Assembly (NCBI GenBank): GCA_016193065.1
Contig: JACPSX010000124.1
Location: 1 to 10,067, forward strand
Reading direction: 5' to 3'
Source of the DNA: Candidatus Tectimicrobiota bacterium
Lineage (GTDB): Bacteria > JACPSX01
DNA length: 10,067 nucleotides
In this document: positions 1,986-10,067 of the stretch, piece by piece
Layout: every line of letters starts with the position of its first letter
How positions within the stretch are numbered: the first letter of the stretch is position 1
Made by a program: the position numbers and the translations under genes
Notes under the pieces: generated by a model
Told to the model about the DNA's origin: nothing
Seen by the model: only the letters and a program-made list of their open reading frames with translations
Database searches by the model: none

Positions 1986-2025
1986 AGTAATTTAGACTGA
2001 TACCATAGCTTCACACATCAGTCCG

Positions 2026-2063
2026 GAAGGGGTCACTCTGGAGGAGTGACCCCTTCTTTTTTT
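2026..2063 (+). terminator. Intrinsic terminator after the RRM gene
   Basis: AAGGGGTCACTC (2027-2038) pairs perfectly with GAGTGACCCCTT (2044-2055) around a TGGAG loop, extended by G2026-C2056, and is followed by seven T residues (2057-2063). This is a textbook Rho-independent terminator. A second small hairpin, TCTCCGG 2063-2069 / CCGGAGA 2075-2081, follows at once. Confidence 0.95.
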
Positions 2064-2132
2064 CTCCGGCCTTCCCGGAGAGCAAACGAGCGAGACCGCT
2101 AACAAGTCCTACCCGGAGCCTGTGCCCCAGTG

Positions 2133-2138
2133 TATACT
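2133..2138 (+). promoter_or_regulatory. Possible -10 element for the OsmC-like gene
   Basis: TATACT at 2133-2138 lies 33 nt before the ATG at 2172 and is directly preceded by TG. No convincing -35 is seen 16-18 nt upstream. Since a strong terminator precedes it, the gene needs its own promoter in this gap, and this is the best candidate. Confidence 0.35.
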
Positions 2139-2171
2139 TTCCACAATCACTTCCCAAAAGAGGAGAATCCT

Positions 2172-2681
2172 ATGTCCACCCAGCCAGTGCCGGAGGCTCT
2201 CAACCCCGATATCCGCAAGCGGGACATCGTCGTGGAAGCGGACGGCGAAACTCTGGAGAAGATGCTCAAAATGGGTCACGTGCGCGGGTTCACCGTGATG
2301 TGCGATGAAGGAGAACGTGTCGGCGGGAACGACACGGCACCCTCTCCTCTGGCCTACTTCACCATCGGAATCGGATTTTGACTGCTCACCCAGGTTGCCC
2401 GGTACGGGCACATGATGAAGGTCCAGATCGACAAGGCGCGGGTGCGGGTTGTGGGGAAGTACCACTCCGAGGGCTCTGTCCTCGCCCAGACGATTCAGGC
2501 GCACTGCCAGGGAGTGGAGACCCACCTGGAGGTCGAGTCGCCGGAACTCCCGGAGAAGGTGGCTGGCGTGATTCGCAACGCGGAAAACGGTTGCTACACG
2601 ATCCAGGCCATCAAGAATCCGGCCCCCGTGCAGACCACGGTCTCCCTGAACGGCAAACCCTTCGACTGGGAATCCTACTAG
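2172..2681 (+). CDS. OsmC-family selenoprotein (UGA-encoded selenocysteine at residue 70)
   Basis: Read through an in-frame TGA at 2379-2381, this is one 169-residue OsmC/Ohr-type protein, a family that reduces organic and other hydroperoxides using two redox cysteines. Residues 54-80 read DTAPSPLAYFTIGIGF-U-LLTQVARYGH: helix PSPLAYF leads into the position where the family has its peroxidatic cysteine, here the TGA codon. The second conserved cysteine is Cys141 in ENGCYTIQAIKN. The two halves (2172-2378 and 2382-2681) share one frame, and neither makes an OsmC fold alone. The TGA is followed by a SECIS-like hairpin. Start at ATG 2172 has AGGAG at 2161-2165. The frame has no other disruption and the downstream half is well conserved, which argues against a decayed gene. 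The alternative is a nonsense mutation. No selenocysteine machinery gene lies in the window. Confidence 0.82.
2394..2411 (+). promoter_or_regulatory. Bacterial SECIS-like hairpin for UGA recoding
   Basis: Immediately downstream of the TGA, TGCCC (2396-2400) pairs with GGGCA (2406-2410), capped by a GGTAC loop (2401-2405). G2394 can pair with C2411, leaving T2395 as a single bulged U on the 5' side. Bacterial SECIS elements bound by SelB have this build: a short stem, a bulged U, and an apical loop with G-U some 20 nt after the UGA. Compared from memory with E. coli fdhF, the bases GGUUGC occupy the same positions (12-17 nt after UGA) and the apical GGU is one base further. Confidence 0.7.
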
Positions 2682-2775: not shown

Positions 2776-3486
2776 TCACACTCCCAGGAGGGTCTTACGG
2801 AGCGCCCCCTCGCTCTGCAGTTGTTCCGCGCCCCCCTCGAAGACCATGAGTCCGTTCTGCATGCCGTAGATCCGGTCGGCGCAATCGAGAACCCGGACCA
2901 CGTTTTGTTCCACGAGGAGAATCGAGGTCCGGTAACGATCCCGGATCGAGCGGATGACCTCGAAGAGCCTCTGCACCAGGAGGGGAGCCAGGCCCCCCGA
3001 GGGCTCGTCCAGCATGAGCAGCTTGGGGCCGGCCGCAAGGCCCATGCCGATGGCCAGCATTTGCCGCTCCCCGCCGCTGAGGACTCCGGCTTTGCCGTTG
3101 CGGCGCTCCTTCAAGACCGGAAACAGGCTGTAGATCCGGGAGAGGTTTTCCTCGAGACGGGGGGGGTCGGACAGCGTGCACCCACCCATCTCCAGATTCT
3201 CCGCCACGGTCAGCTCCGTGAACACGATCCCCCCCTGGGGCACGTAAACCATCCCCTCGCGGATGTTGACGAACGGCTTGCGGCCGCTCACCGTCTCCCC
3301 CTGAAAAACCACTTCGCCCCGATCCAGAGGAAGCACCCCGACAATGGCTTTGAGGAGTGTCGTTTTGCCGGCGCCGTTGTGGCCAATGAGTCCCACGATC
3401 TCTCCCGGTTCGACGCGCAGGGAAACGCCCTTGACGACCGTTTTCCCCGAGTAGGAGACTTCAACTCCAGCGACGTTCAGCAGCAT
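2776..3486 (-). CDS. livF: Branched-chain amino acid-type ABC transporter ATP-binding protein LivF
   Basis: Predicted 236-residue ATPase of a LIV-type importer (HAAT family), on the cytoplasmic face of the membrane. Visible motifs: Walker A GHNGAGKT (35-42), Q-loop Gln84 in YVPQGG, ABC signature LSGGERQ (136-142), Walker B KLLMLDEP (155-162) with Glu161 as catalytic base, and VEQN in place of the usual switch histidine, as is normal for LivF. Length matches the family. The start at ATG 3486 lies inside the end of livG (26-nt overlap), implying coupled translation. It is the last gene of the livHMGF operon and ends before the palindrome at 2682-2728. LIV-type systems also carry amides, urea or aromatic acids, so the substrate is not fixed by sequence. 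Confidence 0.93.
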   Translation of the reverse strand: MLLNVAGVEVSYSGKTVVKGVSLRVEPGEIVGLIGHNGAGKTTLLKAIVGVLPLDRGEVVFQGETVSGRKPFVNIREGMVYVPQGGIVFTELTVAENLEMGGCTLSDPPRLEENLSRIYSLFPVLKERRNGKAGVLSGGERQMLAIGMGLAAGPKLLMLDEPSGGLAPLLVQRLFEVIRSIRDRYRTSILLVEQNVVRVLDCADRIYGMQNGLMVFEGGAEQLQSEGALRKTLLGV

Positions 3487-4252
3487 GAGCAGTCCCCAGA
3501 TAGGCTTTGAGAAGTTCCGGGTGATTTCGGACCGCTTCCGGCGGCCCCTCGAGTATCACCCCGCCCTCCACGAGAACGACGAGATAATCGGAAATCCCCA
3601 TGACCACTTCCATATTGTGCTCGATGAGAAGGATCGTCTTCCCCCCCTGGGCGACGGTCTTCTGAAAAAGATCCGAGAGGCGGTTCACCATGGACCCGTC
3701 CAGCCCCACGGTGGGCTCGTCGAGCAGCAGGAGCTCCGCCCCCGTGGCCAATACCCGGCCGAAGCTCAGGAGCCGCTGCTCCCCGAAGGAGAGGTCGTGG
3801 GCCAGGACCTCGGCCCGCTTCTCCAGCTCGATGAAGCGCAGAATCTCCTGCGCCCGCTCCACAGCGGGCCCGTCCCGATGCGAACCACGGGGGGCGAAAA
3901 TGGCGTGCAGCGGATTCTCACCACGCTGGCCGGGGACCGCCACCAGGATATTTTCCAGCACCGTGAGGTGGCGGAACACGCGGGGGTCCTGGAGCATGCG
4001 CCCGATCCCCAGGGTGGGGATCCGGTGCGGGGGCATCCCGTTGAGCTTCCTGCCGCGGTAGAGGATCTCCCCGGAATCCAGCGGGAGAAGGCCCGAGATC
4101 AGGTTGAAGATCGTCGTCTTGCCGGCGCCGTTGGGGCCGATGAGGCTGGTGATCTTCCCCTCTTCCACGGAAAAACTGACGTGGTTTACCGCCCGCAGGC
4201 CTTCGAAATCTTTCACTCCGTCCCGGACTTCGAGCAGAGCCATGGCCGTCAC
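3461..4252 (-). CDS. livG: Branched-chain amino acid-type ABC transporter ATP-binding protein LivG
   Basis: Predicted 263-residue ATPase pairing with LivF. It has Walker A GPNGAGKT (39-46), Q-loop Gln88 in MLQDPRVF, signature LSFGEQR (154-160, with F for the usual first G, a common LivG variant), Walker B ELLLLDEP (173-180) and switch His212 in IEHNMEVVM. The insertion between Q-loop and signature (ENPLHAIFAPRG and following) is typical of LivG. The GTG start at 4252 overlaps the livM stop by 4 nt (GTGA); an ATG at 4243 is a possible alternative and matches MALLEVRD-type family starts. The 3' end overlaps livF by 26 nt. The overlaps at both ends indicate a single polycistronic message. Confidence 0.93.
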   Translation of the reverse strand: MTAMALLEVRDGVKDFEGLRAVNHVSFSVEEGKITSLIGPNGAGKTTIFNLISGLLPLDSGEILYRGRKLNGMPPHRIPTLGIGRMLQDPRVFRHLTVLENILVAVPGQRGENPLHAIFAPRGSHRDGPAVERAQEILRFIELEKRAEVLAHDLSFGEQRLLSFGRVLATGAELLLLDEPTVGLDGSMVNRLSDLFQKTVAQGGKTILLIEHNMEVVMGISDYLVVLVEGGVILEGPPEAVRNHPELLKAYLGTAHAAERRWS

Positions 4253-5118
4253 TCAAAGCGATAGCGGCCCACAAAGCCCTGGGGCCGGTACAACATGAGG
4301 CCCATGAGCAGGAGGCCGAAGATCATCTGCTGCACGGGTCCCGCCACGGCGCTGGGCAGTCCCACGAAGCGCAAGCCCTCGGGGAGCAGGATCAGAATGG
4401 CGGCGCCCAGGATCGATCCCCACCAGTTCCCGCTCCCCCCGATGATGACGATCGTGAAGATGAAGATGGACTCTCCCAGGGCAAAGCTGTCGGGCCCGAT
4501 GTAGCGGATGTAGTGAGCATAGAGCCCGCCGATGAGGGCCGCCATGCCCCCGGCCGCCGCGGACGCCAGAACTTTGTAGAGCCCCACGTTCTTGCCCAGG
4601 ATCAGCGCCGGCACCTCGTCGTCGCGGATGGCTCTCAGCGTGCGCCCGAACGGGGACTCCACGAGGCGATGCAGAGCCCACAGGATCACAACCGCGGCGA
4701 GAAGGGTCAAGCCAAAATAGCTCCAGTTGGAAGTGAAGGGGAGCCCCGCCAGCGTGGGCCGCGGAATTCCGTAAATCCCGAAGGGGCCGTTGGTCAGCGA
4801 CACCCAGTTGTGAAAGATGCCGTGGGTGATGATCTGCAACCCCATGGTGGCCAGGATGAAGTAGTCGTCCCGGAACCGCAGGAAGAGGGCAGCAGCGAGA
4901 GCGGCGACCAGGGCGGCAACCGTAACGGCGGCTCCCAGCCCGAGGAAAGGGTTCACCCCCAACTTGGTGACCAGGAGCGCCGAGGTGTAGGCCCCGATGC
5001 CGTAGAAGACCGCATGGGCGAGCGACAGAAGCCCCGCGTAACCCACCATCAGGTTCAGGGAGGCGCCGAGCACGCTGTAAATGACGATGAGCGTGAGGAG
5101 ATGCAGTAGATACGCCAT
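4249..5118 (-). CDS. livM: Branched-chain amino acid-type ABC transporter permease LivM
   Basis: Predicted 289-residue inner-membrane permease, almost wholly hydrophobic. Family hallmarks: SLNLMVGYAGLLSLAHAVFYGIG (about 20-42), LTNGPFGIYGIPRP (about 109-122), the cytoplasmic coupling segment FGRTLRAIRDDEVPALILG (about 157-175) that contacts the ATPases, and GGSGNWWGSILGA (about 227-239). Length is usual for compact LivM proteins. A good ribosome-binding site, GAGGGG, lies 6 nt before the ATG at 5118, inside the end of livH; the livH stop and livM start are separated by one nucleotide. The livM stop overlaps the livG start. It forms a heterodimeric channel with LivH. Confidence 0.93.
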   Translation of the reverse strand: MAYLLHLLTLIVIYSVLGASLNLMVGYAGLLSLAHAVFYGIGAYTSALLVTKLGVNPFLGLGAAVTVAALVAALAAALFLRFRDDYFILATMGLQIITHGIFHNWVSLTNGPFGIYGIPRPTLAGLPFTSNWSYFGLTLLAAVVILWALHRLVESPFGRTLRAIRDDEVPALILGKNVGLYKVLASAAAGGMAALIGGLYAHYIRYIGPDSFALGESIFIFTIVIIGGSGNWWGSILGAAILILLPEGLRFVGLPSAVAGPVQQMIFGLLLMGLMLYRPQGFVGRYRFE

Positions 5119-5119
5119 G

Positions 5120-5998
5120 CTAGGCCCCTCTCACCGCGAGCTTCTTGCCGAAGATCCCCTGGGGCCGGAACAGGAGAAAGAGGACCAGGATCGCGAAGGC
5201 GATCGTGTTTTGCCAAGCCGCCGAGATCTCGATGACGGCCAGGTTCTGCACCAGGCCCAGGATGAAGGCGCCGATGGCCGCCCCGGGCAGGTACCCCACT
5301 CCCCCCACAATCACGGACACCGCCGCCACCAGCACGATGGCGAATCCCGTGTCGGGACGGACCCCCACGTCAAGGCTCACGAAGACGGAGGCCAGGGCCG
5401 CCAGCCCCGATCCCAGGGCGAGGATGTAGAGATAGAGCCGGTCCACGTGGATCCCCACGGTCACGGCCAGCTCCGTATTGTTGGCCAGAGCCCTCATCTC
5501 CTTGCCCAAGCGGCTGCGTCTGAAAAAGAGCTGCAGCCCGGCAAACACCGCCAGGGAGACGGCCAGCGCCACGACGTGCAGGGAGGTGAGGGTCACCACG
5601 CCCAGGTCGTACGCCTCCAGGGGGCCCTGGCGGATCACCAGGGTCTCCGTCCCGAAGACGGCCGCCACCAGGTTTTGCAGGAAGATAAAGAGGCCCAGGG
5701 AGCTGATCATGTACGTGGCCAGGCCCGCCCCCCGCCGGCGCAGGGGCCGGTACACCACGAGTTCGATCAGCCCGCCAAAGAACGCGACCAAAACAACCGT
5801 AACCAACGCAGCGGGGATGAACGGCAGTCCCAGCTTGGCGCCGATCAGAAAGAGCACGTAGCCGGCCAGGGTGTACACCGCCCCGTGGGCCACGTGAAAG
5901 ATCTTGCTCGTGTTGTAGACAATAGCAAAGCCCAGGGCCATCAAAGCGTAGATGGTCCCGCCCACGATGCCATTGACCAGGAACTGGAGAATAACCAC
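5120..5998 (-). CDS. livH: Branched-chain amino acid-type ABC transporter permease LivH
   Basis: Predicted 292-residue inner-membrane permease. The N-terminus ILQFLVNGIVGGTIYALMALGF and the following NTSKIFHVAHGAVYTLAGY are standard LivH signatures; the cytoplasmic SRLGKEMRALANNTELA segment is the ATPase coupling region, and GGVGYLPGAAIGAFILGLVQN and LLFRPQGIFG close the protein. The start is placed at GTG 5998 because GGAG (6005-6008) lies 6 nt upstream and homologues begin within a few residues of this point; an in-frame codon at 6055 would add 19 poorly conserved residues. It is the first gene of livHMGF. The 169-nt gap to the upstream methyltransferase gene contains a perfect TTGACA on the minus strand (6075-6080) but no good -10, so a shared transcript is possible. 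Confidence 0.92.
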   Translation of the reverse strand: MVILQFLVNGIVGGTIYALMALGFAIVYNTSKIFHVAHGAVYTLAGYVLFLIGAKLGLPFIPAALVTVVLVAFFGGLIELVVYRPLRRRGAGLATYMISSLGLFIFLQNLVAAVFGTETLVIRQGPLEAYDLGVVTLTSLHVVALAVSLAVFAGLQLFFRRSRLGKEMRALANNTELAVTVGIHVDRLYLYILALGSGLAALASVFVSLDVGVRPDTGFAIVLVAAVSVIVGGVGYLPGAAIGAFILGLVQNLAVIEISAAWQNTIAFAILVLFLLFRPQGIFGKKLAVRGA

Positions 5999-6061
5999 GG
6001 TCAGCTCCGATCCGAAAATAGGGGCTCTGCACCAGTTCGGGACAAACGACCCCACGCCTTT

Positions 6062-6167: not shown

Positions 6168-7538
6168 TTAAAGCTTGGCTACGTCGATCCGCCGTTTGTC
6201 CTCCTTAAACGGCACCTTGGTAACAGTAGCGCGGATCTCTCTCTGAGGACCACCTCGATCCCCCCAAACGACTGTAACGTCCATCCCCGGCTCGGCAAAG
6301 TCCTTGTCGATCACGCAAAGGGAGATCATTTGGCGGAAATAAGGACTATAAACGCGAGATGTGGAGCACCCGACAACGTTTCCATCCTTCAGGACTTTAT
6401 CGGGATCCAACGAGTGTTTATGATTGACCCGGGGCAGTTCCATCGGGGTGGGTATCGGCCCTGCGCGGAACAAGGCAGCATAGACATCAATAACGTCTTC
6501 ACTATTCCATTTGAGTCCAACGATCCGCCGGGCGGGTCCGCCGGCGTTCTTCTCAACAATGAGTGCTTCTCGTCCCATGAAGTCGTGGGTGTCGAGAGAG
6601 ACTTCTTTATCCCAGCCAAGCTCAAAGGGCGAACGCATTAGTTCGCTGGGATCGGACCATTCATAGCTTCCGCCTTTGGTGTCCAGTTTGTGGGCCTTCG
6701 AGCTCCCTCCCGTTGTCGATGCTGCGGGCCAGAAGTCTCTGCCGATGGTGGGGAAGCAGCCTTCAACGTGGCTGATCAGTTGCGACCTTCCGCCAAGTAA
6801 TCTGAGCCCGAATTCTTTGCCTGCTTCGTGGATAGCCACCCAAATGTCATTACCGATCTCTGAGGGGCCATGAACTTCGTATCCCAGTTCTCCGGTCACG
6901 CCCGTCCTGAGAATGCGGACATCGTGTTGCCCGATCTTCGTCATCCTGGTGTAACTAAACTTAATATCCCGCAGGTTTTCCCGGGTCGTCTTCTCCATTA
7001 CGTATAAGGACTTCGGCCCTTGTATGACGAACACGAATTCGTCAGGGCTGTCGATCCTTGCTTCAGCGTTTCGTTTGGCCTGCTGGAACCAATAGCTGAG
7101 CCAGTAAGCCCCGCCGCCGCTGTATCTATACTCTTCCTCGGAAATCTTGTAGAGGATGCCCTCGCCAGCCACTTTTCCCTGCTCGTTCGTTTGTATCGCA
7201 TGTTTGATTTGGCCGAGATTGAATTTGTGCAGGTTATTTACACAGTAGTAGCTAAGGAACTCCAGCGCATCGGGACCCTTAATACGGAACTTGGTGAGTG
7301 CGCTCCAGTCACCCAGATAGGCCGTTTCGTGAAAGGACAAGCCTTCCTCGATGAAGTTAGTGTATTGCCAGGGAATCCATTCGGAGATGAACTTCCACAT
7401 GATGTTGCAGGCGCCATGGTTCTCCTGGGCTGCCGCGGCCGGACTGAATACGGCTGGTCGCTCAAAATAGAAGGGCCGATCCCACTCAAGCGACCTCCTG
7501 TATTCCTCGCGAAACTTTTGGATGTCCAGTTGTGACAT
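6168..7538 (-). CDS. GcvT-fold tetrahydrofolate-dependent methyltransferase / O-demethylase (LigM-like)
   Basis: Predicted 456-residue cytosolic enzyme of the aminomethyltransferase (GcvT) superfamily. The long form, with GPDALEFLSYYCVNNL near residue 88, FVIQGPKSLYVMEK near 170, GELGYEVHGP near 216, FELGWDKEVSLDTHDFMGREAL near 306, WNSEDVIDVYAALF near 343, and a C-terminal VVWGDRGGPQREIRATV, resembles LigM, the vanillate/3-O-methylgallate demethylase, more than GcvT of the glycine cleavage system (about 360 residues). Such enzymes pass a methyl group to tetrahydrofolate. Other relatives demethylate DMSP or methylated amines, so the substrate is open. Start ATG 7538 has GGGAG (7546-7550) 7 nt upstream. 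GC content is visibly lower (about 42-58% per line) than in the liv genes (often above 65%), hinting at a separate origin. Same strand as and upstream of livHMGF. Confidence 0.8.
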   Translation of the reverse strand: MSQLDIQKFREEYRRSLEWDRPFYFERPAVFSPAAAAQENHGACNIMWKFISEWIPWQYTNFIEEGLSFHETAYLGDWSALTKFRIKGPDALEFLSYYCVNNLHKFNLGQIKHAIQTNEQGKVAGEGILYKISEEEYRYSGGGAYWLSYWFQQAKRNAEARIDSPDEFVFVIQGPKSLYVMEKTTRENLRDIKFSYTRMTKIGQHDVRILRTGVTGELGYEVHGPSEIGNDIWVAIHEAGKEFGLRLLGGRSQLISHVEGCFPTIGRDFWPAASTTGGSSKAHKLDTKGGSYEWSDPSELMRSPFELGWDKEVSLDTHDFMGREALIVEKNAGGPARRIVGLKWNSEDVIDVYAALFRAGPIPTPMELPRVNHKHSLDPDKVLKDGNVVGCSTSRVYSPYFRQMISLCVIDKDFAEPGMDVTVVWGDRGGPQREIRATVTKVPFKEDKRRIDVAKL

Positions 7539-9432: not shown

Positions 9433-10067
9433 TCAGCCCTTGTAGGGGACGAATTTGCCGCCCTTGATCGTGCGGACGGTCATGGGCTTGATGGAATCCC
9501 CGTTGGGCAGGAAGGTGGTCTTCCCGGTCACGCCCGGAAAATCCTTGATCGTCAGGAGCACGCTGCGCATCTTCTCGGCGTCGTAGCCCCCCTTCTCGAT
9601 GGCCAGGGCCAGAATCTTCACCGCATCGTGGAAGCTCCCCGCGAAGTTATCCGGGATCTTGCCGGCCTTTTCCTTGTACTTCTTTACGAAGTTCGCCACC
9701 AGAGGGTCCTTGCTGTCCGGATCGAAGGCCGGAATTGCGTAGATGATCCCTTCGGCAGCCTTGCCTGCCACATCGATGAGCTCGGCCGCTTCCGTGGCCG
9801 AATTACTCAGGATCTGGGCTTTGATCCCCAGTTCGGCCGATTGCTTGACGACCTGGGCCAGAGCCTTAGTCCCGGTCCCCAGGATCGCCAGGATCTCGGG
9901 TCTGGCCGCCCTCACCTTGGTGAGCTGGGAGCGAAAATCGGTCCCCGCATTCTCGTAGGCGTCAACTACTATAATCTCTCCCCCGAGCTCTTTGGTCTTC
10001 CTCTCCATGGTCTCCTTGTAGTACCGCCCCACCTCATCGTTCACATGGAGAACTGCGATCTTCTTCT
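9433..10067 (-). CDS. LIV-type ABC transporter periplasmic substrate-binding protein, C-terminal part
   Basis: The last 210 residues of a type I periplasmic binding protein (Peripla_BP_6 / LivJ-like); the frame is open to the right edge, so the signal peptide and N-lobe are outside. It reads KKIAVLHVNDEVGRYYKE, then GTDFRSQLTKVRAARPEILAI, GFDPDSKDP-like AIPAFDPDSKDP, and DAVKILALAIEKGGYDAEKMRSVL with a C-terminal KTTFLPNGDSIKPMTVRTIKGGKFVPY. GTDF and the IKGGKFVP ending are family hallmarks. Such proteins deliver branched-chain amino acids or, in related systems, amides or aromatic acids to LivHMGF. It is transcribed in the same direction as the liv operon, upstream of it, but separated by about 3.4 kb of methyltransferase and accessory genes. 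Ligand unknown. Confidence 0.9.
   Translation of the reverse strand, partial: KKIAVLHVNDEVGRYYKETMERKTKELGGEIIVVDAYENAGTDFRSQLTKVRAARPEILAILGTGTKALAQVVKQSAELGIKAQILSNSATEAAELIDVAGKAAEGIIYAIPAFDPDSKDPLVANFVKKYKEKAGKIPDNFAGSFHDAVKILALAIEKGGYDAEKMRSVLLTIKDFPGVTGKTTFLPNGDSIKPMTVRTIKGGKFVPYKG

Follow-up and report, generated by a model that had tools for sequence, protein, structure and literature searches.

Does the in-frame TGA in an OsmC-family gene of an uncultured Candidatus Tectimicrobiota bacterium end the protein, or is it read as selenocysteine (Sec), and what would the resulting protein do? The gene lies on the plus strand at positions 2172..2681 of the window, by which we mean the whole 10,067-nucleotide contig (JACPSX010000124.1) that was analysed. 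A ribosome-binding site, AGGAG (2161..2165, plus strand), stands 6 nt ahead of the ATG at 2172, and the reading frame runs from there to a TAG at 2679-2681, with the TGA at 2379-2381 (plus strand, codon 70) as its sole internal stop. Under translation table 11 the gene is presented as two short open reading frames, one that ends at 2381 and another that starts at 2412; a preliminary description of this DNA had joined them into one, and they do lie in the same frame, just as the peptide that it placed ahead of the TGA, PSPLAYFTIGIGF, agrees with the translation. When TGA is translated as U, the product has 169 residues with Sec at position 70. A single OsmC domain (Pfam OsmC, 48 bits, residues 52-155) covers both halves across the TGA, and the protein scores 182.3 bits against the NCBIfam model NF041052 (OsmC_like_Se, ‘OsmC-related (seleno)protein’), for which the curated cut-off is 95 bits. 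The UxxT motif published for OsmC-like selenoproteins (PMC1088965, PMC2398784, PMC13188914) is found as U70-L-L-T73, with predicted Sec70 as its first residue and T73 encoded at 2388-2390 on the plus strand. Judged from its sequence, the gene is predicted to encode an OsmC-like selenoprotein and adds a member to a family already known.

The choice of codon at this position is consistent among relatives. A representative-genome scan together with further genome searches yielded 20 clade genes from 15 genomes, every one of them with TGA at the same codon. Eight of these relatives came from the scan itself, in assemblies that bear the names Binatia, ‘Deltaproteobacteria’ and Tectomicrobia (TGA in 8/8). 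The clade proteins are as little as about 31% identical to the window protein, and with 20 genes from 15 genomes at such distances chance is excluded. In a survey of 386 genomes, the ten matches that clearly exceeded the family cut-off each carried exactly one TGA, and weaker relatives mostly had no stop. A genome comparison for the assembly that holds the window returned relatives of the same domain only, none of its own group. The TGA had been placed at the site of the reactive cysteine, and alignment bears this out, with Cys in the TGA column in 24 of 24 relatives that have a sense codon. The second cysteine was likewise rightly described as kept: Cys141 (TGC, 2592..2594, plus strand) is one of the only invariant residues in a 25-protein alignment, the others being D45, G52, P59 and U/C70, and its column holds Cys in 22/24 Cys homologues. 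Within the same clade, no relative was seen that combines a sense codon with decay elsewhere in the gene. One gene copy (L062/L064, contig C18 of genome G101) is without the UGA segment and frameshifted there, the result of either a deletion or an assembly gap.

The AlphaFold2 model, computed for the window protein with 24 relatives, has the OsmC/Ohr fold at a mean pLDDT of 93.5. The structures that match it best are those of OsmC and Ohr proteins, with Foldseek E-values down to 5e-10 and structural Z scores to OsmC/Ohr chains of about 12-13, up to 15. The window protein shares the fold and the two redox residues with the Ohr/OsmC organic hydroperoxide reductases, but it has Sec for Cys, is without the Glu of the NPEQ position and is only 10-20% identical to them. 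The closest solved sequence is that of the OsmC-like protein of Jannaschia sp. (PDB 3cje, E 2e-15), which has Cys at the U70 and C141 columns and, like the window protein, no NPxE Glu; it differs in carrying Cys in place of Sec and is 23% identical. A further Cys form, the OsmC family protein WP_024946712 of an E. coli IncF plasmid, is itself a member of NF041052 (127 bits); it is about 28-30% identical and has a longer N-terminus, whereas the second Cys and the xxT of the motif are retained (FCMLTH versus FULLTQ). From its fold and its Sec70/Cys141 pair, we expect the window protein to act as a selenol peroxidase or as an oxidoreductase of a related kind.

The preliminary description had gone further, proposing a faster peroxidase with Cys141 as the resolving residue, a proposal that loses force because the catalytic Glu of the Ohr type is missing. 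In Xylella Ohr, the cysteine depends on Arg19 and Glu51 for its activation, and the E51A variant has only residual activity, with the pKa of the Cys moving from 5.9 to 7.2 (PMC5962072). The Glu at this NPEQ position is absent in 17/17 Sec proteins aligned, and also in the Cys relatives 3cje and WP_024946712. Its absence from the clade extends to the Cys forms, so that peroxidase activity should not be taken for granted, and a peroxide substrate and a gain in speed are features that we infer. The missing Glu and the behaviour of E51A both favor a different reading, in which the protein, though truly a selenoprotein, does not reduce hydroperoxides and acts as another thiol/selenol oxidoreductase, with disulfides, sulfur compounds and thiol adducts as examples of its substrates. 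We consider this reading possible, although the balance is against it: an OsmC fold that carries Sec and keeps a second Cys has what a peroxidase would need, and a selenol is acidic by itself and needs no help from a Glu.

More tentatively still, the Sec clade may be a distinct kind of selenol oxidoreductase, in which the thiolate-activating Glu of Ohr has gone, the acidic selenol does the work and the substrate is possibly another one; the same somewhat doubtful proposal holds that two or more additional OsmC subfamilies, whose scores fall far short of the NF041052 cut-off (L103; L104 and L105), have also exchanged Cys for Sec. These three proteins belong to other OsmC subfamilies (58-59 bits, under the cut-off of 95) and keep an NPxE-type Glu; their genes have TGA at the reactive Cys, followed by a hairpin, and selA is present in their genomes. 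Judging from these sequences, Cys may have been replaced by Sec on additional, separate occasions within the OsmC superfamily.

Whether the TGA is decoded at all as Sec can be addressed from the RNA that follows it. A bacterial SECIS-like hairpin lies within the coding region at 2396..2410 (plus strand), starting 15 nt past the TGA, with a 5-bp stem (extended by a sixth pair in most sequences) and an apical loop GGUAC with a conserved G. It matches the description of the bacterial SECIS as having a small, G-containing apical loop just past the UGA (PMC1088965). We aligned, without gaps, 16 distinct sequences taken directly 3′ of the TGA, and the stem (columns 18-22 with 28-32; 2396-2400 with 2406-2410 in the window) is paired in 95% of cells, with two-sided changes at four of the five stem pairs and 22 double-changed cells. 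The loop reads GGUAC or differs little from it, and the G is retained. Neither the pairing nor the covariation score was equalled in any of 500 shuffles, sliding the partner by 1-3 columns left only 26-60% pairing, and RNAalifold independently recovers the same stem. Folded alone, the hairpin has an energy of -9.3 kcal/mol (z -2.1); in a context of 37-45 nt it shows no unusual stability by folding energy (z -0.2 to -0.8), and it is covariation, not folding energy, that singles out the SECIS in the longer context. An Rfam scan of the region gave chance matches only.

The genome of the window’s organism carries part of the machinery for Sec. The assembly is a MAG, 86% complete and in 294 contigs, of which one (C175) holds both selB (370 bits versus a cut-off of 242) and selD (388 bits), each over its curated cut-off. 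The selD gene (L037, about 8406-9452 of C175) has an in-frame TGA within CAGUAGK, which we take to be the usual Cys/Sec site of SelD, and a strong hairpin follows (z -2). From its sequence, the SelD of this organism appears to be a selenoprotein itself, and with its TGA and own hairpin the genome appears to read a second UGA likewise. A check of the genome for sel genes had been proposed, and its outcome is divided: selB and a Sec-type selD were found, but selA and tRNA-Sec were not found in this MAG. Matches to the tRNA-Sec model were all ordinary tRNAs, tRNA-Trp, Ser and Leu among them, and a SelA-like stretch on contig C242 reached 14 bits, under the cut-off. The start of selB is 260 bases from the contig end, and those 260 bases are without a recognisable selA end. 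In 13 of 14 other genomes that carry an OsmC-like selenoprotein gene, selA is over the cut-off. Given the completeness and fragmentation of the MAG and the position of selB near a contig end, the two absences are weak evidence; with selA found in nearly all of those other genomes, we read them as missing sequence.

These absences, and the fact that the window gene comes from one MAG contig only, are what speaks for the TGA being a true stop, either in a pseudogene or through a sequencing or assembly error. We regard a true stop as highly improbable, for the TGA recurs in independent assemblies, the hairpin covaries, and selB and a Sec-type selD are present in the genome. Moreover, the frame past the TGA evolves as coding sequence. 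In a comparison with the relative L041, differences at codon positions 1/2/3 number 15/10/34 upstream of the TGA and 30/20/55 downstream, which indicates purifying selection on both sides, and therefore a downstream half that is not a decaying pseudogene; together with the independent assemblies, this pattern rules out pseudogene and error. Genome-wide reassignment of TGA to an ordinary amino acid (Trp or Gly), for which the in-frame TGA is the one argument, has a negligible probability and is ruled out by the five of nine confident window genes that end in TGA and by an aligned residue that is Cys, not Trp or Gly, with the presence of selB and selD also against it.

We are nearly certain, then, of the reading in which the gene encodes a two-residue (Sec70/Cys141) redox protein of the OsmC fold, with Sec inserted by SelB/hairpin decoding and peroxide reduction as the likely activity. 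During translation, the hairpin would bind SelB bearing Sec-tRNA(Sec), and the UGA at 2379-2381 would be decoded as selenocysteine rather than as termination. The folded form is, by homology, presumably an OsmC-type dimer. The Sec70 selenolate would most likely attack a substrate in its oxidised form, with an organic hydroperoxide or other electrophilic oxidant as the probable candidate, and so become a selenenic acid. The presumed resolving residue Cys141 would convert this to a selenenyl-sulfide, and a dithiol reductant would then regenerate the enzyme. What the sequences establish is the gene, the codon, the matching Cys of homologues, the covariation of the SECIS, membership in the family and the sel genes; the insertion of Sec itself, peroxide as the substrate, the part played by Cys141 and the reductant are inferred.

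OsmC-like selenoproteins were first reported from the Sargasso Sea in 2005 (PMC1088965) and from GOS in 2008 (PMC2398784), so that the class had been correctly described as already known from metagenomes, and two reviews, from 2022 and 2026, include them (PMC9312934, PMC13188914). Our literature search found no enzyme activity for the family. The statement that automatic annotation would lose the gene is only partly true now: NF041052 models exactly the OsmC-like selenoproteins, and annotation based on this model is equipped to recognise the gene. The window gene has the OsmC domain, Sec at the reactive Cys, the UxxT motif, a SECIS directly past the UGA and known Cys forms in common with this family, and differs from it only in its host, an uncultured bacterium, and in its gene neighbourhood. 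It adds no new kind of system.

The neighbouring genes appear to differ between the window and the relatives examined, and gene context therefore gives no clue to function; phage records contained no relative. Upstream in the window is a gene for an RRM RNA-binding protein (1680-1985), and between it and the OsmC gene stands a strong intrinsic terminator-like hairpin with a T run (2025-2057, plus strand). On the minus strand, a branched-chain amino acid type ABC transporter (two ATPases, two permeases and a substrate-binding protein; 2776-6055 and 9433-10065) surrounds a GcvT-like gene (6168-7538), which has the O-demethylases DesA and LigM as its nearest relatives. Going by these sequence similarities, the transporter and the GcvT-like gene perhaps serve the uptake and demethylation of methoxylated aromatics. 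In a Tectomicrobia MAG (L016, about 1990-2570, minus strand), the OsmC-like selenoprotein gene is adjoined by a CMD/AhpD-like gene with GCPFUADI, a CxxU motif, which is predicted to be a second selenoprotein gene. In L041, a DUF3179 gene (2199-2918) adjoins the OsmC-like selenoprotein gene; DUF3179 is among the listed selenoprotein families (PMC9312934).

For a selenoprotein family that has been little studied, the window gene is a further well-supported example and comes with a clean set of covarying SECIS sequences. Through selB and the selenoprotein SelD, it also indicates the use of Sec in an uncultured lineage.
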